A stretch of DNA of 64,000 nucleotides from Apilactobacillus waqarii. GTDB lineage: Bacteria; Bacillota; Bacilli; Lactobacillales; Lactobacillaceae. The notes beneath the pieces were generated by a model that was not told where the DNA came from, did no database searches, and saw nothing but the letters and a program-made list of their open reading frames with translations. The position numbers were made by a program, and so were the translations under genes. Below are positions 26,678 to 47,294 of this stretch, in pieces (positions within the stretch are counted from its first letter, which is position 1; the number at the start of each line of letters is the position of its first letter). The stretch spans positions 1-64,000 of the forward strand of contig NZ_JAHQYH010000001.1 in assembly GCF_019061205.1 (NCBI RefSeq), written 5' to 3'.

Positions 26678-26694
26678 ATATTAAAAATATAGAG

Positions 26695-26786
26695 TCTTTA
26701 ATTTAGTCCCGTGAGGCTGATAAGATTAGCGAATTTAATAAAAATTTGTGAAGGTCTATTCGTCTAGGGATGAATGGACCTTTTTT
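26695..26786 (+). promoter_or_regulatory. PyrR-dependent attenuator upstream of pyrP
   Basis: AGTC (26705-26708), hexaloop CCGTGA and GGCT (26715-26718), framed by TCTT/AAGA pairing, reproduce the PyrR-binding hairpin consensus. Downstream, GGTCTATTC (26753-26761) pairs with GAATGGACC (26772-26780) before TTTTTT as the terminator. In the known mechanism PyrR with UMP/UTP stabilises the first hairpin, freeing the terminator and shutting off the permease when pyrimidines are plentiful. Confidence 0.9.
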
Positions 26787-26825
26787 GCTAGATTAAAGCT
26801 CTGAAATCATTTAGGGGGATTGGTT

Positions 26826-28076
26826 ATGAATAAAAATTCAGACACCATTTTAGATGTTAACGATAAACCAGGATTCTGGCTTTGGGTCGGTTTATCATTA
26901 CAACACATGTTTTCAATGTTTGGAAGTACAGTAATCGTACCGCTATTGGTAGGATTGAGCCCAAGCATCGCTTTATTTACTTCAGGAGTGGGGACTTTAA
27001 TTCACATTCTAGTAACACAAAAGAAGATTCCGGCTTACATGGGATCTAGTTTCGCATTCATCGTACCTATGAAGTACTTGATGCAAGTGACTGGCTATCC
27101 GGGAATTGCCCAAGGAGTCATCGCGGTTGGTGTAATTTATTTAATTGTTGCACTAGTCGTTGCCATGATTGGTTCGGAATGGATTGATAAGTTGCTACCA
27201 GCAGTCGTGGTTGGACCGGTTGTAATCGTAATTGGATTATCACTAGCATCAAGTGCTGCCAACGATGCAATGCTAAACAACGGAAACTATGACTACAAGT
27301 ACGTGTTTGTCGCATTGGTGACCTTATTATTAGCAATCTTCTTTAACATGTACCTAAAGGGTTTTCTAGGCTTTATGCCAATTCTATTAGCCATCGTTTG
27401 TGGATATGTTTTATCAATTGCGATGGGATTAGTTAACCTAAGTACAATCGCAAATGCACCATGGTTCTCAATGCCTAAGTTTGAAATTCCATTCGTTTCA
27501 TACAATGTGAAATTTGAATGGGGTGCAATTATCGCCATCGCGCCAATTGCCTTCGTTACCATTACTGAACATTTAGGTCACTTGATGGTTCTAGATGAAT
27601 TAACAGGCAGAAACTACTTTAAGGATCCTGGTTTAAACAGAACCCTAACAGGTGACGGATTAGCTTCAATGTTTGCCGGATTAGTCGGTGGACCAGCCAT
27701 AACTAGTTATGGTGAAAACATCGGAGTGATGGCAATTACTAAGATTCACAGTGTCTATGTATTGATTGGTGCCGCAGTATTTGCCATTTTATTCTCATTT
27801 GTGAACAAGTTAAATGTGTTAATTATGCAAATGCCACTACCTGTAATCGGTGGTATCAGTTTCCTATTGTTTGGAACAATTGCTTCTAGCGGGATTAAAA
27901 TCATGATTGAAAATCAAATTGATTTAGCAAATAAGCGTAATTTGATGATTGTTTCCACCATTTTGGTAATTGGAGTCGGTGGTTTCATGATCAAAATCGG
28001 AACATTGCCTTTAAATGGACTAGCTGTATCCGTAATCCTAGGAATTTTATTGAATATTGTATTACCTAAAAATTAG
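26826..28076 (+). CDS. pyrP: Uracil permease (NCS2/UraA family)
   Basis: 416 residues with about 12-14 hydrophobic segments. NCS2 signatures include LQHMFSMFGSTVIVP near the N-terminus (quinone of UraA-type first helices), the AFVTITEHLGHL segment with the conserved substrate-binding Glu, and GDGLASMFAGLVGGPAITSYGEN (two blocks). It imports uracil with protons. The PyrR attenuator directly upstream supports a pyrimidine rather than purine substrate. ATG at 26826 follows TTAGGGGGAT; a TTG two codons earlier is too close to the ribosome binding site. Followed by a long inverted repeat that probably terminates the transcript. Confidence 0.93.
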   Translation: MNKNSDTILDVNDKPGFWLWVGLSLQHMFSMFGSTVIVPLLVGLSPSIALFTSGVGTLIHILVTQKKIPAYMGSSFAFIVPMKYLMQVTGYPGIAQGVIAVGVIYLIVALVVAMIGSEWIDKLLPAVVVGPVVIVIGLSLASSAANDAMLNNGNYDYKYVFVALVTLLLAIFFNMYLKGFLGFMPILLAIVCGYVLSIAMGLVNLSTIANAPWFSMPKFEIPFVSYNVKFEWGAIIAIAPIAFVTITEHLGHLMVLDELTGRNYFKDPGLNRTLTGDGLASMFAGLVGGPAITSYGENIGVMAITKIHSVYVLIGAAVFAILFSFVNKLNVLIMQMPLPVIGGISFLLFGTIASSGIKIMIENQIDLANKRNLMIVSTILVIGVGGFMIKIGTLPLNGLAVSVILGILLNIVLPKN

Positions 28077-28087
28077 TAAAGATTAAT

Positions 28088-28195
28088 AAATACCAATTAA
28101 AAACAGTGCTTTTAGTGATATAATGCAGATAGGTAAATTAGAGAGAGTTTGCCGCATTATTAGACTGATATGCCAAGTTTTAATTGGTATTTTTT
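28088..28195 (+). terminator. Long-range inverted repeat ending the pyrP transcript
   Basis: A 17-base arm (28088-28104, AAATACCAATT then AAAAAC) pairs with 28177-28192 (GTTTTAATTGG then TATTT) with one bulge, followed by TTTTT. The 72-base interior holds the next gene's promoter, so only transcripts coming from pyrP can form the stem; transcripts starting inside carry just the right arm. Confidence 0.55.
28116..28124 (+). promoter_or_regulatory. Extended -10 promoter for the GT2-TagF-TagF gene
   Basis: TGATATAAT: TGA directly before a perfect TATAAT (28119-28124). The -35 is weak (ATTAAA). The leader to the gene is about 97 nt. Confidence 0.6.
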
Positions 28196-28227: not shown

Positions 28228-31200
28228 ATGAATGAACCATATCTATCCGTGATAGTGGCCTGCTATAACGTACAAGATTACATTGAAAAATGTTTGTCAT
28301 CCATTGCTAATACTAATTTCCCTATGGAAAGCCTTGAAGTATTGATGATTGATGACGGATCAACTGATAATACAAGCAAAATTATTGATGAATTTGCAAA
28401 TAAATATAATAGTTTTAGAGCACTACATAAAGAAAACGGTGGTTTAAGTAACACCAGAAATTATGGGATGAAGCACGCAAGAGGAAAGTACATTGCATTC
28501 GTTGATGGTGATGACATTGTTCCTGCTAACGCTTATCCTTCAATGGCGTTTAAAGCTCGTCAAAACGACTCAGACTTAGTTGTAGGTTTTGTTAAACGAT
28601 TTGATAAGGATCGTTATGAAAACTCATACCTACATTCTTTTGCTGTGCACGATGATTACGATAATACGCACATTACAACCAACCATGACTTGATTTATGA
28701 CACAACCAGTTGGAATAAACTATACAAGCGTTCCTTCCTACTTGATAACAGCATCAAGTTTGTGGAAGGCATCATCTACGAAGATATTCCTTTCTCAATG
28801 GAAGCCCACTTGAAGTCACATAAGACCTCAGTTGTAGAAGATGATGTTTATGAATGGAGATGGCGTGAAAGTGCTGATTCCATCACACAAACCAGAAGTG
28901 CGCTTTCTAACTTTGAAAGTCGATTAAGTTCACTTAGAAGAACTCTACAAATCATTTTGAATAATGGCTTTAGTGAAGAAGATTCATTTGTTCAAGACTT
29001 TAAATATAAGGCGTTGTTCCTAGATCTATTTATCTTTACCCAAAGCCTAGGTGATAATAGCAGTGACTATATTTACCAAGCTCAAGAAATGGTTTACAAG
29101 TTCCTAAGAGATTGGCACTTGTGGGATTCAGAAATCTTCTATCGCTTGCCAGTCAAGCAACAAATCCTATATTCAGCAATTAGATATAACGATGTCGATG
29201 TCATTAACGACATTTCTTATAAAAAGCAAATTGGTGAATTTAAACATTCAATTGGTGGATCAAACTACCGACTAATTGCACCTGAACTAGGTGATAAGAA
29301 GCAACTAGTTGATAATGTTAATTTAAACGATAACAACAGTCGTTTTAACCAAAAGATTAGAGACGTTGAATTTACCAATGTTGATAACGGTGATATTAGA
29401 ATCGATGGAGCATTCAAGATTACTAAGCTTCACCTTGTTAAACAAACATTTGGTGACGGAAACAAGAACGAATCATTACAAGCCAGCTTGATTAACGTTA
29501 AAAATCAAAAGACCATTAAAGTTCAAATTAAGAGGGTAGAAAGTCCTTTTGTTAGAAGAACTTTAAAGCCAAATGCTAAGTACAACAACGCTGATTACGA
29601 AGTTAAGTTTAATATTAAACAAGCTATCGACACTTTAGGTGTTGGAACTTGGAAGGTACAAATCAAAAACACCGTGGATAACCACATTATGGTAAAGGAT
29701 TTTGCTACTGATCCAATTGAAAAGCTAACTCAAAAAGCCATTTTACCGTTTGAATACAATGGGGTAAAAGTGATTACTAGATTTAACAGTGTCGGTTCAC
29801 TAGTCTTTGAAGTAATCGATTTAAACTCAGATTCTGACAGAAGACCGGTGGTTAGCTATCCAACTGTTAGCGACGATAAGCAAGAACTAAGTTTTAACGT
29901 TGATAACATGGACGTATCTGGTTACAATGCCGTTTTAATGGCTGCAAATGGTACTGCCATTCATTCAATTGACCAAAATGAAAACAGTTTTGCGTTTAAC
30001 GTTAAGGAAATTAACGATAAAGCTCGTAACCAAGAACTTAAGTTAATTATCTTGGATAACTTTACTCATGCTGAAATGAACTACTCATTCTCTTCAAACA
30101 AGATTAATCAACAAATTAATCTAGACGATGGGGATGCCATTTCATTGTTCTATGGTGATATCAAAAACATGCAACTAATGATCGAAGAAGCCCCATTTGT
30201 GGCTAAGAATGTCACTGTGGATGCCAACAACGTCCTACATGTTTCTGCCAAAATGAACAAAGCAGTCGACCCAAGCAGCGTCTTGGTATCACAAGCCCAC
30301 GTTGAATTAATTAGTGCAGATAAGGCAACTAGAAAGGTGTTAGATCCAGTATCTAACCATTTCCAAATTAATGGTGATAGCTTCGACTTTGACTTTGCAC
30401 TAACTTCAAACAACAATGAACAACTAGACTTACTTGAAGGTGATTATCAATTTAAGATTTATCTTCAAGTTGATGGTAAGGCGCATACTTACCGCATCAA
30501 GTACGCCAAGAAGTGTCGTATTAAGACTACTGAATTGCCTTTCAATGGAAAATCTCAAATTTTCTACGCTGTAAAGAAGGATAAGAGCATGAATCTTATC
30601 TTCAAGGTAGATCAACCATTCTTTGGTGCAATGGATGCTAAGAAGGGCTTACGTGCCATTTCTTACTCTGTTTTATATCCATTGATGAGATTATTACCAC
30701 TTAGAAATGTGATGGTCTTTGACTCTTATTGGTCAAGTAAGTTTGATAGTAACGAAAAGTTGATGTATCAATATGTTGAAGAAAATCATCCTGAAATCAA
30801 ACCAGTATGGATTTTCAACAACATCGAAACCAAGATTACTGGAGACGGTGAAAAGGTTCGAGTAAACACATTTAAGTACTGGTACTATTTGGCTGTTGCA
30901 AGATACATTATTCAAAACACCAACATGCCTAACCGTTACGCTAAGCGTAAGGGACAAATCGAAGTAGAAACACTTCACGGAACATTCTTAAAGCACATGG
31001 GATTTGATGAACCTCACTTTAAGTTTGGTACCAACAAGTTACAAAATCGTTTTGCGATGAGAAACCGTCGTTGGGACTACTTGGTTGTACCTTCTGATTA
31101 CATGGAAAAGACTGCTAAGCACGCATTTAACTACAGTCAAAAGATTATTAAGTCAGGTTTCCCTAGAAATGATGAGCTATACACTCACAACAATACCGAT

Positions 31201-33267
31201 TACATTAATTCCATTAAGAACAAACTTGGTATTCCGCTAAATAAGCGTGTGATTTTATATGCACCAACATTTAGAGCAGATGGTGGTTTTGATTTCAAAC
31301 TTGATTTAGACAAGTTACAAGAAAAATTATCAGACGGTTACGTGCTACTTGTTCGTTTGCATTACTTTGTAGCTCACTCAAATAGTTTCTACAACAATCC
31401 TGGATTCGTATACGATGTTAGTGACTACGACAACATTAATGATTTATACCTAATCAGTGATGCGATGATCACCGATTACTCATCAGTAATGTTTGACTAC
31501 GCACATCTAAAACGTCCAATGATTTTCTACGCATACGATGCTGACTGGTACTTAGACGAAGCTAATCGTGGGGTTTACCTAGATTACTACAAGCAAATGC
31601 CTGGACCAATTGTTAAGACTGAAGACGAATTGATTGATCGCATCAGACATATCGATTCAGTCGCAGACAATTATGCAGACCAAATGGAAACATTCTGTGA
31701 TGAGTTTGCTCAATATGGTCGTAATGGGGATGCCACTCAACAAGTTGTTGAAACAGTATTGAACACCCAAAGAGAAGATTTAGACCAAGAACCAGCCAAG
31801 AGTCTGCTATTTAAGAAGATTGGTCATTTCTGGGATACTAACTTCTTCCAAGCTAAGTTGTTAAATGAACTATCAAAACGCCTTGCTAAGAAGGATATCG
31901 TAATCTTCGATAGTTTCTTCGGAACTCAATATTCAGACAATCCTAAGGCGATTTATGAATACATGAAGGCCAACAATCCTGGTTTCAAACTATACTGGAA
32001 CGTAAACAAGGAAGATCGTGAATTCTTTGAATTAAACCAAATTCCTTATGTAACTAGATTTGGTTTCAAGGGAATCTTAAAACAAGCTAGAGCTAAGTAC
32101 TGGGTAACCAATTCACGTCGTCCATTCAGATGGCACCCAAGTAAGGACACTGTTGTATTACAAACTTGGCATGGTACACCACTAAAGACCATTGGTGCCG
32201 ACGTTATGAAGGTAACAATGCCTGGTGTAAACGTTGCTAAGTATCACGAAGAAGTCTTTAAGGATAACAGAAGATGGACTAGATTGATTGCACCTAACAT
32301 GTATTCAGCAGAAATCATGCAACGCTGCTTTAGAATGCAAGCCAGTCAAATTCAATTGGATGGATACCCAAGAAATGATATCTTAGTAAACCATACTTCT
32401 AACGATATCAGAGAAATCAAGGAAGACTTGGGCATTGAAGATAACAAGAAGGTTATCTTATATGCTCCAACTTGGCGTGATAATGAATACATTAAAAACG
32501 ATGAATTTACCGCCAAGCTACACCTTGATTTACAAAAGCTACGCGAACGTTATGAAGGCAAAGCATACGTATTAGTTAGAACTCATTACTTAATATCTAA
32601 CAATCTAGACTTAAGTGATTACGAAGGTTTTGCACTAAACGTAAGCAACTACCCAGATATTGCTGAATTGTATCTAATCAGTGATGTCTTGATTACCGAC
32701 TACTCATCAGTAATGTTTGATTACGCAACATTAAAACGTCCAATGATCTTCTTTACCTATGACTTAGAAGATTATGCGAATGCTATTCGTGGATTCTACT
32801 TTGACTTCATTAAGGAAGCTCCAGGTCCAATCGTTAAGACTAATGATGAAGTAATCGAAAGTCTTGATGATATATTCAACAACGGATGGACTCCAGATGA
32901 TAAGTATGAAGCATTCTACAAGAAGTATTCAGCTTGGATGGATGGTAATGCATCTAAACGTTCTGTTGAAAAGATGCTAAGTGATCACAGTCTTGAAACA
33001 TTCTATAGTGATGATTTATCAATACAAGGATTAAGTGATCAAATGATTGCCAAAGACTGTGCAACCCTTTGGGCAAAAGATAAGGACTTCGCTAACTATC
33101 GTGATAATCATTTTGTTAAGTATCTAGATGGTGATAGAGAAGTGAAAGTAATTAAGACAGCTCAATTATGTGATAGAGAATTCAAAGAATTCTTAGGTGC
33201 TAAGTACGCATTAGTAAGTTTAGACAATCATAATTACTGGATTAATACAGAAGAATTAAGCAAATAA
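28228..33267 (+). CDS. Trimodular GT2 glycosyltransferase plus two CDP-glycerol glycerophosphotransferase modules
   Basis: 1679 residues. Residues 1 to about 330 are a family 2 glycosyltransferase: VIVACYNVQDYIEKCL, DDGS at 42-45 and DGDD (metal-binding) at 93-96. Residues about 370-820 are a beta-rich region of repeated strand segments without motifs I recognise. Two TagF-type (Glyphos_transf) modules follow: module A (about 826-1130) with LHGTFLK, FPRNDELY, RLHYF and [10 protein letters not shown]; module B (about 1223-1551) with WHGTPLK, YPRNDIL, RTHYL and [10 protein letters not shown]. Each keeps both catalytic histidine motifs. A C-terminal tail of about 125 residues ends the protein. 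There is no signal peptide; such enzymes work on the inner membrane face. It likely builds a teichoic-acid-like or glycerol-phosphate-containing surface polymer. Own promoter and terminator: monocistronic. Confidence 0.85.
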   Translation: MNEPYLSVIVACYNVQDYIEKCLSSIANTNFPMESLEVLMIDDGSTDNTSKIIDEFANKYNSFRALHKENGGLSNTRNYGMKHARGKYIAFVDGDDIVPANAYPSMAFKARQNDSDLVVGFVKRFDKDRYENSYLHSFAVHDDYDNTHITTNHDLIYDTTSWNKLYKRSFLLDNSIKFVEGIIYEDIPFSMEAHLKSHKTSVVEDDVYEWRWRESADSITQTRSALSNFESRLSSLRRTLQIILNNGFSEEDSFVQDFKYKALFLDLFIFTQSLGDNSSDYIYQAQEMVYKFLRDWHLWDSEIFYRLPVKQQILYSAIRYNDVDVINDISYKKQIGEFKHSIGGSNYRLIAPELGDKKQLVDNVNLNDNNSRFNQKIRDVEFTNVDNGDIRIDGAFKITKLHLVKQTFGDGNKNESLQASLINVKNQKTIKVQIKRVESPFVRRTLKPNAKYNNADYEVKFNIKQAIDTLGVGTWKVQIKNTVDNHIMVKDFATDPIEKLTQKAILPFEYNGVKVITRFNSVGSLVFEVIDLNSDSDRRPVVSYPTVSDDKQELSFNVDNMDVSGYNAVLMAANGTAIHSIDQNENSFAFNVKEINDKARNQELKLIILDNFTHAEMNYSFSSNKINQQINLDDGDAISLFYGDIKNMQLMIEEAPFVAKNVTVDANNVLHVSAKMNKAVDPSSVLVSQAHVELISADKATRKVLDPVSNHFQINGDSFDFDFALTSNNNEQLDLLEGDYQFKIYLQVDGKAHTYRIKYAKKCRIKTTELPFNGKSQIFYAVKKDKSMNLIFKVDQPFFGAMDAKKGLRAISYSVLYPLMRLLPLRNVMVFDSYWSSKFDSNEKLMYQYVEENHPEIKPVWIFNNIETKITGDGEKVRVNTFKYWYYLAVARYIIQNTNMPNRYAKRKGQIEVETLHGTFLKHMGFDEPHFKFGTNKLQNRFAMRNRRWDYLVVPSDYMEKTAKHAFNYSQKIIKSGFPRNDELYTHNNTDYINSIKNKLGIPLNKRVILYAPTFRADGGFDFKLDLDKLQEKLSDGYVLLVRLHYFVAHSNSFYNNPGFVYDVSDYDNINDLYLISDAMITDYSSVMFDYAHLKRPMIFYAYDADWYLDEANRGVYLDYYKQMPGPIVKTEDELIDRIRHIDSVADNYADQMETFCDEFAQYGRNGDATQQVVETVLNTQREDLDQEPAKSLLFKKIGHFWDTNFFQAKLLNELSKRLAKKDIVIFDSFFGTQYSDNPKAIYEYMKANNPGFKLYWNVNKEDREFFELNQIPYVTRFGFKGILKQARAKYWVTNSRRPFRWHPSKDTVVLQTWHGTPLKTIGADVMKVTMPGVNVAKYHEEVFKDNRRWTRLIAPNMYSAEIMQRCFRMQASQIQLDGYPRNDILVNHTSNDIREIKEDLGIEDNKKVILYAPTWRDNEYIKNDEFTAKLHLDLQKLRERYEGKAYVLVRTHYLISNNLDLSDYEGFALNVSNYPDIAELYLISDVLITDYSSVMFDYATLKRPMIFFTYDLEDYANAIRGFYFDFIKEAPGPIVKTNDEVIESLDDIFNNGWTPDDKYEAFYKKYSAWMDGNASKRSVEKMLSDHSLETFYSDDLSIQGLSDQMIAKDCATLWAKDKDFANYRDNHFVKYLDGDREVKVIKTAQLCDREFKEFLGAKYALVSLDNHNYWINTEELSK

Positions 33268-33271
33268 GATT

Positions 33272-33307
33272 GAAGCATCAACGGTTTATCGTTGATGCTT
33301 CTTTTTT
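33272..33307 (+). terminator. Terminator after the trimodular polymerase gene
   Basis: Perfect 12-base stem GAAGCATCAACG (33272-33283) with CGTTGATGCTTC (33290-33301), loop GTTTAT, then TTTTTT. Confidence 0.95.
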
Positions 33308-33626: not shown

Positions 33627-34367
33627 ATGCAAATTAGTGCAAGTGCTACTAAGTCAAAAAGAACCATTTCTTGGACAAGCTCTATTATTTACTTTTTAAT
33701 CTCACTAGTTATTAACTCATTGGGGAATGTTTTAACACTAGTAACTAGTGCCAAAATTCATCCATCATTTCTAGGATCAGCATACTGGACAGCTGCTGAA
33801 AACAACCTAGGATACGCCGTTTTAGGTGATGGTAAATGGGTTTTATTCTGGGCATTCTTTGGACTAGGAATGTTAATTACAGTTCTTAACTCAATTCTAG
33901 TTGGAAAATGGAGCTGGAGCAGAGTTATTGGTAACGCTGCTTTCTTAGGACCATTCTCATTATTGATTAACTATTTCAACGGTGTTGTAAGTAACTGGTT
34001 ACCAGAAGCACACGGAATTGGAATGACATTAGCATACGTATTACTTAACTTCGTTGGTGTTTCATTTATTGCAATCGCAATTTCAATTTACCAAAGAGTT
34101 AACATTGCGCTACATCCTGCTGATGATTTAATGCAAATTTTAAGATTTAAATACTGTGATGGAAATGCCTCAAAGGCAATGTGGTTCTCATACATTCCAC
34201 CAACTATCATGGCAATTATCGCTATTGTAATTACTCACCAATTCAATAACTTTGGATTAGGAACCTTGTTCGCATTCTTCTTCCAAGGAGGAATCACAGG
34301 GATCGCTGATAAGCATGTCTTTACCAAGCTAAAGCATCAAGCTCTTGATGTTGGAGAAGTAAAATAA
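33627..34367 (+). CDS. Integral membrane protein, YczE/YitT-like (function unknown)
   Basis: 246 residues with about six hydrophobic segments (approximately 18-40, 70-90, 103-118, 133-155, 188-205, 212-228). The overall pattern, including GMLITVLNSILVGKWSWSRVIGN and an ending cytosolic tail, resembles the YczE/YyaS group of small membrane proteins often annotated as hypothetical or DUF6198; this is a weak resemblance and the substrate is unknown. ATG at 33627 follows GGTAAGGGGTATT. It stands alone between terminators and has an unusually long structured 5' region, which suggests regulation at the RNA level, perhaps by a ligand it transports. Confidence 0.6.
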   Translation: MQISASATKSKRTISWTSSIIYFLISLVINSLGNVLTLVTSAKIHPSFLGSAYWTAAENNLGYAVLGDGKWVLFWAFFGLGMLITVLNSILVGKWSWSRVIGNAAFLGPFSLLINYFNGVVSNWLPEAHGIGMTLAYVLLNFVGVSFIAIAISIYQRVNIALHPADDLMQILRFKYCDGNASKAMWFSYIPPTIMAIIAIVITHQFNNFGLGTLFAFFFQGGITGIADKHVFTKLKHQALDVGEVK

Positions 34368-45275: not shown

Positions 45276-45316
45276 ACTGGATTGTGTGATAGTTTTTAAA
45301 TATGGTGGGATCTGTT

Positions 45317-46468
45317 TTGAAGGTTATGTATATATTTTTAATTAAGATAGTATCTTTACTATTTTATTTCAGAAAAAAAGAGAATGTAATTTACATAATG
45401 AGCTTTGATAATAATCTTGGATTAATTAAATCGATGGCTCGTCGATTACCAAAAAATAAAAGGCTATATGTATATTATGAATCATCAAGCGAAGCAGCTG
45501 CGACTGATTTAGCTGCTTATGGAATTAAGACTGTCTTATTTAAGGACGGCTTCAAACTAATATTTGATTTAATTCCAAAGATAATGGCAAGTAATGTTAT
45601 CTTTTGTGATAATTACTTTCCGTTCATGGGTGGCATTGCCCATCCTAAGGATTTAAAAGTTGTTCAATTATGGCATGCCAACGGGGCAATTAAGAAGTTC
45701 GGTTGGGAAGATGCTTCTACTAAAGATAGAAGTGCCTCTGACAAACGTCGTTTTCAAAAGGTTTATAACAGCTTTGATGAATACGTGGTTGCTTCCGAAA
45801 CAATGGGACATGTATTTGAGAACAGTTATCATGTTTCCTTTGATAAAATGAAGATGATTGGTTATCCAAGATCTGATAGATTATTTAAGGAAAAATGGCA
45901 AAAGATTGCGAGAAGACGTGTTTATAGTTTTGCTCCCCAATTGAAGGGTAAACGAGTAATTTTATACGCACCAACATATCGTGATGAGGGAAGGTCATTT
46001 AATCCACCTAAGGGTGTTATTAAGGCTTTATCAAATGATCCTAATGCGATGGTAGTTGTAAAACTACATCCACTTCTAAAGGACTTAGAAGAAAAATTGC
46101 AAAAGGAATCAAAGAGTCCAAACGTGATGTTTTCAAATCAATTATCAACCACAGATTTGTTGGCTGTAACTGATACCTTGGTAACTGACTATTCATCAGT
46201 TGCTTTTGATTATTCACTATTGCCTAATGCGCATTCTCTATTGTTCTTTATGTTTGATTTAGACCAATATAAACAAAATCCAGGGATTCAAGATGATTTA
46301 TTGAATTGGTTGCCTACAAACCCAATTACATCCTTGGATGATTTAAGAAAAGCAATTAGTGAAGATAAACAAACAGATTTTACCAATTTCAATCACCATT
46401 GGAACAAGTACAATGATGGTTTTGCAACAAGTCGAGTAATCGACAGATATATTAAAACTTTAAAGTAA
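45317..46468 (+). CDS. TagB-like CDP-glycerol:glycerophosphate glycerophosphotransferase
   Basis: 383 residues from TTG 45317, which has GGTGGGA at seven bases; the ATG at 45302 would add five residues but lacks a ribosome binding site. A hydrophobic N-terminal segment (YIFLIKIVSLLFYF) probably anchors it to the membrane. The Glyphos_transf motifs are LWHANGAIKKFG (about 118-129), GYPRSDRLF, LYAPTYRDEG, VKLHPLL (about 248-254) and VTDYSSVAFDYS (about 288-299). The Ala-Asn in HAN, where polymerases have HGT, and the single small module suggest a primase (TagB-type, first glycerol phosphate) rather than a polymerase; this is inference. First of three genes with tagG and tagF. Confidence 0.82.
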   Translation: MKVMYIFLIKIVSLLFYFRKKENVIYIMSFDNNLGLIKSMARRLPKNKRLYVYYESSSEAAATDLAAYGIKTVLFKDGFKLIFDLIPKIMASNVIFCDNYFPFMGGIAHPKDLKVVQLWHANGAIKKFGWEDASTKDRSASDKRRFQKVYNSFDEYVVASETMGHVFENSYHVSFDKMKMIGYPRSDRLFKEKWQKIARRRVYSFAPQLKGKRVILYAPTYRDEGRSFNPPKGVIKALSNDPNAMVVVKLHPLLKDLEEKLQKESKSPNVMFSNQLSTTDLLAVTDTLVTDYSSVAFDYSLLPNAHSLLFFMFDLDQYKQNPGIQDDLLNWLPTNPITSLDDLRKAISEDKQTDFTNFNHHWNKYNDGFATSRVIDRYIKTLK

Positions 46469-46484
46469 AGGAAGTGTGATCGAC

Positions 46485-47294
46485 TTGAAGGAAGTCATTA
46501 CATTAATCAAAGAGCAAATTCAAAATTTACCAATAATGTTTAGAGTCTCAAAGTACCAAGATAAGTCAGACTATCAAAGTCATTATCTAGGTATTGTTTG
46601 GGCATACCTATACCCAATTATTCAAATCTTAATTTACTGGTTAGTATTCGGTGTTGGTTTGAAGAAGGGTACATCTGGAAGTGTTGATTACCTAACTTGG
46701 ATGGTTATCGGTATTACACCATGGTTCTACATGAACAGTGTTACTTTAGATGCTTCAAAGAGTATCTACCAACAAGTTGGCATGGTTTCAAAAATGAAGT
46801 TCCCAGTTAGTGTTCTACCATCAATCAAGATTCTAACTAACTTAAGTTCATTCTGGGCTATGCTAGCATGTTCAATTATCTTAGGTTACCTAAAGGGTGG
46901 AGTACTACCTAACCTATACTGGATTCAATGGCTATACTACTTCTTTGCAATGATTTGCTGGCTATTAGCATTCGGTATCTTCAACTCAACTGTTACAATT
47001 CTTGTTCGTGATTATCGTATCTTCTTACAATCAATCATGAGAGTACTGTTCTACATGTCTGGAGTTCTATTTAACTTTGAAACAAATGCTTTCCCAGCAT
47101 TCTTTGTAAGATTCTTACAATTGAACCCATTCTTCTACATTGTTTCTGGATTTAGAGAGTCAATGTTAGGTGAAGATTGGTTCTGGCAAAAACCAATGTT
47201 GATGTTAATCTTCTGGCTAACAGTACTATTCTTCCTATTGGTTGGATCACATCTACACTACAAGTTCAGAGCTCGTTTCGTGGATTACATTTAG
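46485..47294 (+). CDS. tagG: Wall teichoic acid ABC transporter permease, TagG type
   Basis: 269 residues from TTG 46485, six bases after an AAGGAAGTG site; a GTG at 46476 lies inside that site. The ABC-2 permease fold has about six membrane segments, and the opening FRVSKYQDKSDYQSHYLGIVWAYLYP-type block (in two parts, about 22-46) is typical of TagG/RfbA permeases for lipid-linked polymer export. In known systems TagG needs the ATPase TagH; no ATPase gene lies beside it or in this window, so TagH must be encoded elsewhere. Seventeen bases after the TagB-like gene and 29 before tagF, implying one operon. Confidence 0.88.
   Translation: MKEVITLIKEQIQNLPIMFRVSKYQDKSDYQSHYLGIVWAYLYPIIQILIYWLVFGVGLKKGTSGSVDYLTWMVIGITPWFYMNSVTLDASKSIYQQVGMVSKMKFPVSVLPSIKILTNLSSFWAMLACSIILGYLKGGVLPNLYWIQWLYYFFAMICWLLAFGIFNSTVTILVRDYRIFLQSIMRVLFYMSGVLFNFETNAFPAFFVRFLQLNPFFYIVSGFRESMLGEDWFWQKPMLMLIFWLTVLFFLLVGSHLHYKFRARFVDYI

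Follow-up and report, generated by a model that had tools for sequence, protein, structure and literature searches.

The window analyzed here, a 64,000-nucleotide stretch of the Apilactobacillus waqarii genome, contains a single open reading frame (ORF) that joins a GT2 glycosyltransferase domain to two TagF-like modules (M1 and M2), which raises the question of what such a chain would synthesize and how its modules would share the work. Single GT2-TagF proteins and multidomain TagF-like polymerases are already known, and the literature on TagF-like polymerases describes type II wall teichoic acid synthesis as little known and asks whether TagF-like homologues have a part in it (PMC5974469). 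Our best explanation, to which we assign a probability of about 0.5, is that the protein is a one-chain polymerase in which GT2 and M1 would act as one unit and M2 as a separate one.

A preliminary description of this DNA had proposed a GT2 domain followed by two complete TagF-type modules, and every motif that it listed was recovered in a single frame. The GT2 domain matches PF00535 at residues 7-170 (114.4 bits, Pfam) and has its DxD/ED catalytic motifs, with DDGS at residues 42-45 and DGDD at 93-96. PF04464 matches two stretches of the ORF, with 724 bits together in Pfam and, in a profile search of the organism's own genome, 362.6 bits at 30691-31761 and 377.5 bits at 31879-32973 (cutoff, 22.1). 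The whole protein reaches 681.7 bits against the TarF equivalog NCBIfam NF041712 (threshold, 550), a score that is summed over two stretches. M1 and M2 each carry HGT (917-919 and 1315-1317), PRND (979-982 and 1381-1384), RxHY (RLHY at 1043-1046 and RTHY at 1451-1454), and TDYSS (1082-1086 and 1490-1494), and alignment to TagF matched both catalytic histidines in each module, so that neither lacks a histidine motif (Table 1). The two sets of motifs are thus all present but not identical, since M1 reads ETLHGTFLK and M2 reads QTWHGTPLK, with WHGTP being the canonical form. The beta-rich linker is the least conserved part of the whole protein in the alignment. The C-terminal beta domain, modeled with a pLDDT of about 92, evolves fast, has no Pfam match in a search of the protein, and finds no match in the Sporolactobacillus homologues.

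Table 1. Positions of the tandem gene, its domains, and associated features, numbered from the start of the window unless a locus is named
Feature	Position	Strand	Basis
Promoter-like site, extended -10 (TTAAAA-16-TATAAT, TG before -10)	28097..28124	+	Consensus scan
Whole ORF, GT2-linker-M1-M2-C-terminal domain, 1679 aa	28228..33267	+	ATG start, single open frame
GT2 (GT-A) catalytic domain, residues 1-240	28228..28947	+	Pfam PF00535; DDGS, DGDD, ED, and WRWRE retained
Helical region after GT2, residues 241-345, as in TarS/TarP/RmlT	28948..29262	+	Predicted structure
Beta-rich linker, residues 346-790	29263..30597	+	Predicted structure; partial overlap with RmlT/TarS beta domains
M1, TagF-like module 1, residues 800-1180	30625..31767	+	LHGTF, H917 and H1045 retained
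M2, TagF-like module 2, residues 1195-1585	31810..32982	+	WHGTP, H1315 and H1453 retained
C-terminal small beta domain, residues 1590-1679 (~90 residues)	32995..33264	+	Predicted structure
Terminator-like hairpin, 13 pairs, then T run	33272..33301	+	Sequence scan
TarB-like glycerophosphotransferase with WHA motif; probably primes the linkage unit in the same pathway	45302..46468	+	Profile search
TagG-like ABC-2 permease of wall teichoic acid exporter	46476..47294	+	Relative adjoins tandem gene in Pediococcus
Separate TarF-like glycerophosphotransferase, 407 aa	47324..48547	+	Profile and identity to modules
Separate GT2-TagF gene upstream of tandem gene in relatives	L062 4870-7173; L065 4912-7152; L068 4861-7170		

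The ORF is flanked by a uracil permease gene and a membrane protein gene. It has its own promoter-like site, in a region where such sites as a whole are not above chance in the consensus scan, and its own terminator-like hairpin, and the tandem gene in this genome is therefore probably transcribed alone as a monocistronic unit. We note that a PyrR-binding RNA element (RF00515, 57.1 bits, 26691-26789) precedes the uracil permease gene (26820-28076). The downstream membrane protein (246 aa, 33627-34367) is a neighbor conserved in Apilactobacillus and Philodulcilactobacillus and has only a sub-cutoff match to DUF6198.

The same order of modules recurs widely among relatives. Near-identical copies (96-98%) are found in Apilactobacillus kunkeei, which puts the source organism, a lactic acid bacterium associated with honeybees, in or very near that species. 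The gene is present in 16/16 Apilactobacillus genomes searched and uninterrupted in 15 of them; of the 151 genomes sampled across the family, nine outside Apilactobacillus have a long uninterrupted frame of the tandem kind. Named records extend the carriers to six Pediococcus species (damnosus, parvulus, cellicola, argentinicus, pentosaceus, and acidilactici), two of Lentilactobacillus (senioris and kribbianus), Philodulcilactobacillus, Lactiplantibacillus modestisalitolerans, Enterococcus canis, and five Sporolactobacillus. The full-length homologues in this order share 30-98% identity and come from independent assemblies, which also rules out a frame that arose by chance. An assembly or sequencing error that fused two genes would fit the split copies seen in A. 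micheneri and Leuconostoc fallax, yet roughly 30 genomes assembled independently have one unbroken frame in which a short linker separates the modules, which rules out an assembly join and leaves an artefact vanishingly improbable. The three-module order proposed at the outset withstood the check for an artefact. The architecture is not rare among relatives. A phage origin was rejected, as phage records gave only partial matches, none of which covered 80%.

Some copies are irregular. In A. micheneri Hlig3 (L071 6001-11033) the gene forms two overlapping frames split inside M2, where it is one base shorter than in A. timberlakei and A. quenuiae, a deletion that marks either a pseudogene or a sequence error. 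The L. fallax copy (L099 6001-10870, also L051) is fragmented into at least three frames. A tandem-gene relative on the P. damnosus beer plasmid NZ_CP012272.1 (L141 5998-10677) lies downstream of an IS256 transposase, and its annotated CDS covers only the first part. Immediately upstream of the tandem gene, A. ozensis, A. xinyiensis, Philodulcilactobacillus, and Lentilactobacillus carry a further, separate GT2-TagF gene (744-769 aa), which is absent from that position in A. kunkeei.

Gene neighborhoods place the enzyme in a pathway. The tandem gene adjoins tagG and tagH in Pediococcus and comes after TarB-like, TagA, and TarF-like genes in E. canis, and from this genomic context it therefore almost certainly encodes a wall teichoic acid polymerase. 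Single GT2-M1 genes at two other loci (L050 and L133) also adjoin a TagG-like permease gene. The A. waqarii genome itself encodes a TagO candidate (PF00953), TagA, TagD, TarB-like and TarF-like proteins, TagG, and a TagH homologue (62% identity), an apparently complete wall teichoic acid pathway whose genes are unlinked to the tandem gene. TagD was above the cutoff in 16/16 tandem genomes checked, including this one, and a TarI-size IspD-family gene was present in only 3 of the 15 others. No TarI was found in the A. waqarii genome, where the only match to PF01128 is below the cutoff and lies inside a 467-aa frame of GlmU size. Because this genome has TagD and lacks TarI, CDP-glycerol is favored over CDP-ribitol; by gene content it is likely the donor for at least one module and probably for both, and the CDP-ribitol option raised in the preliminary description is not supported in the source organism.

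We performed a phylogenetic analysis of 84 TagF-like domains, using a quick method with SH-aLRT support only and a root placed, with uncertainty, on the long TarB branch. The 22 tandem M1 modules form one group (support, 94) and the 22 tandem M2 modules another (support, 99). The sister group of M1 (support, 84) consists of M1-like modules from single GT2-TagF proteins 1144-1203 aa long, which speaks for the pairing of GT2 with M1, and M2 is placed among TarF and GT2-TarF proteins. Recent internal duplication was rejected, since M1 and M2 are only 37% identical, M2 is closer to the separate TarF-like protein (42%; 35% for M1), and each has its own group in the tree. These data are most simply read as a single fusion of a TarF-like module to a GT2-TagF polymerase, after which the two descended as one gene.

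The most telling of the new results is the loss of modules in opposite combinations. Within Apilactobacillus, comparisons in the A. kunkeei group gave dN/dS values of 0.02-0.04 for GT2, 0.03-0.04 for M1, and 0.04-0.06 for M2, all indicative of strong purifying selection, and because motifs are retained and all values fall within 0.02-0.06, all three are probably active here. The initial suggestion that both TagF modules may be active is thereby strengthened, and a dead module in the source organism is ruled out by the same motifs and dN/dS values, although motif-less modules do occur elsewhere. In two strains of L. senioris and in L. kribbianus, the motif table shows damage to the GT2 motifs (DDGS, DGDD, and the ED region) and to those of M1 (HGT to RGT/RNS and RLHY to LDKY/LDSQ), and M2 is intact; P. 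acidilactici and P. argentinicus have GNG/GQG as the first histidine motif of M2, and GT2 and M1 are intact. Catalytic loss is judged here from motifs only, and each of the opposite losses is a single event. Pairwise identities show that lost modules change faster than intact ones: a Lentilactobacillus pair (L068/L070) shares 64% in GT2, 64% in M1, and 87% in M2, and a Pediococcus pair (L076/L082) shares 71%, 63%, and 42%, respectively, with 77%, 79%, and 75% in the intact pair P. damnosus/P. cellicola. The agreement between opposite losses and identity patterns suggests that GT2 and M1 form one sugar/glycerol-phosphate unit and that M2 is a separate glycerol-phosphate transferase, in line with the early suggestion of a functional difference between the modules. 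We also observed that the GT2-M1 part of the Lentilactobacillus proteins (L068, L070, and L080) is full length with its catalytic motifs gone. The damaged M1 still has a dN/dS of 0.05 between the two senioris strains, indicating purifying selection, and therefore modules may have noncatalytic roles, with this M1 perhaps retained as a scaffold.

The architecture, its conservation, the retained residues, the pathway genes, and the module phylogeny are read directly in the sequences; from them we infer the donors, acceptors, and order of addition as follows. TagO, TagA, and the TarB-like primase would make a lipid-linked linkage unit and TagD would provide CDP-glycerol, after which the tandem enzyme, as one cytoplasmic chain, would extend the polymer ahead of export by TagGH. 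GT2 would place a hexose or N-acetylhexosamine on a glycerol-phosphate end, in a reaction predicted to be inverting and hence to give a beta linkage, and M1 would then place glycerol-phosphate on that sugar, so that GT2 and M1 would work as a single catalytic unit. M2, as a separate TarF/TagF-type activity, would add glycerol-phosphate onto a glycerol-phosphate end. The predicted product is a sugar-containing glycerol-phosphate chain with two kinds of glycerol-phosphate linkage. We regard this division of labor between the modules as an even bet. Alternating sugar and glycerol-phosphate addition, which the preliminary description had offered as one option, is plausible and finds indirect backing in the fact that Lentilactobacillus lost its GT2 motifs along with those of M1 and in the existence of single GT2-M1 polymerases. 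That the three active sites of one chain produce an ordered repeat that carries sugar within its backbone and has two distinct types of glycerol-phosphate linkage (e.g., sugar-GroP-GroP) is a more tentative proposal that we consider possible but doubtful.

The position of M2 among TarF enzymes also fits a scheme in which M2 would add the first glycerol-phosphates as a transition transferase and GT2-M1 would elongate a sugar/glycerol-phosphate copolymer. Transition transferases that start a chain ahead of the polymerase are known (PMC11666461), and single GT2-M1 proteins do occur without M2. This genome, however, already has separate TarB-like and TarF-like proteins, and in Lentilactobacillus M2 is the sole intact module, so that little activity would be left if it only primed; the latter objection fails if the adjacent GT2-TagF gene (765-769 aa) elongates. 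We consider priming by M2 distinctly unlikely.

Structures were predicted in two overlapping parts with a mean pLDDT of 86 in both halves. The M1 model superimposes on TagF with a Z score of 44 and an rmsd of 2.6 over 377 residues, TagF being the closest solved enzyme to M1 (1.1e-67), and the second-half model aligns with TagF at a TM-score of 0.84 by target length. The GT2 model matches TarP (Z, 31) and TarS residues 1-349 (Z, 31.5), and residues 1-530 align collinearly with RmlT and TarS, beta domains included (Z of about 30-32). These similarities tell against a backbone role for GT2, since TarS, TarP, and RmlT are side-chain decorators and not backbone builders. They define the main rival, in which M1 and/or M2 would make plain poly(glycerol-phosphate), as the match of both modules to the poly(glycerol-phosphate) polymerase TagF would allow, and GT2 with its beta domains would glycosylate side hydroxyls of the growing chain. 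Decoration by itself leaves unexplained why Lentilactobacillus lost GT2 along with M1 and why two different TagF modules are retained, and the acceptor position cannot be read from a shared fold; we judge it unlikely.

The donor of M1 is less certain, as its LHGTF departs from the WHGTP of known glycerol-phosphate transferases. M1 could instead move another phosphate group, such as hexose-1-phosphate from a UDP-sugar, like the TagF-like domain of Cps1B, with which it shares the order of GT-A followed by TagF (PMC5974469). A WHG motif is quoted for glycerol-phosphate transferases and a QHG variant for hexose-phosphate transferases (PMC11666461); M1 differs from the former but also lacks the latter, and its nearest solved enzyme is TagF, which makes a hexose-phosphate donor quite improbable.

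We found no published account of a chain with two TagF modules in the literature searched, in which few subscription journals were covered, and a term check of two A. kunkeei papers gave no mention of the tandem architecture; the literature search likewise found no direct structure paper for Pediococcus wall teichoic acid. A conserved GT2-TagF-TagF enzyme encoded beside tagGH, in lactic acid bacteria of food and bees, provides a concrete candidate for type II wall teichoic acid synthesis. If our best reading, with GT2-M1 as one unit and M2 as another, is true, the wall polymers of L. senioris, P. acidilactici, and A. kunkeei should differ predictably. The polymer might likewise have a bearing on phage adsorption and on the association with bees.

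Among known systems, M1 and M2 share their fold and both histidine motifs with TagF of Staphylococcus epidermidis (PDB 3L7I to 3L7M), a poly(glycerol-phosphate) polymerase whose own N-terminal part is weakly GT2-like, but that enzyme has one TagF module, no second, and no TarS-like beta linker. The N-terminal half has the GT-A domain and helical region of TarS and TarP of S. aureus and RmlT of Listeria, together with the beta domains that follow in TarS and RmlT only; all three are separate decorating wall teichoic acid glycosyltransferases without TagF modules. TarF and TarL of S. aureus and TagF1 (402 aa) and TagF2 (941 aa) of L. plantarum (PMC3511166) belong to the same pathway, and M2 groups with TarF-like proteins, yet these are separate proteins, unlike the fused modules here. 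The GT-A/TagF-like capsule polymerases Cps1B, Cps7D, and HS1.09 likewise carry a sugar transferase together with a TagF-like phosphate transferase in one chain, and their alternating synthesis has been demonstrated experimentally (PMC5974469, PMC8262930, PMC11924219), with mutants and trans-complementation used to show alternation of glycosyl and phosphate transfer (PMC5974469). They are Gram-negative enzymes of the group 2 capsule locus with one TagF-like module, whereas the tandem enzyme has two, is Gram-positive, and is found in wall teichoic acid loci, which places it outside that family. By analogy it may nevertheless work as they do, and if the ordered-repeat proposal is true, it would be a Gram-positive counterpart of the capsule multienzyme machines and a candidate for the biosynthesis of wall teichoic acid with sugar in the backbone (type II).
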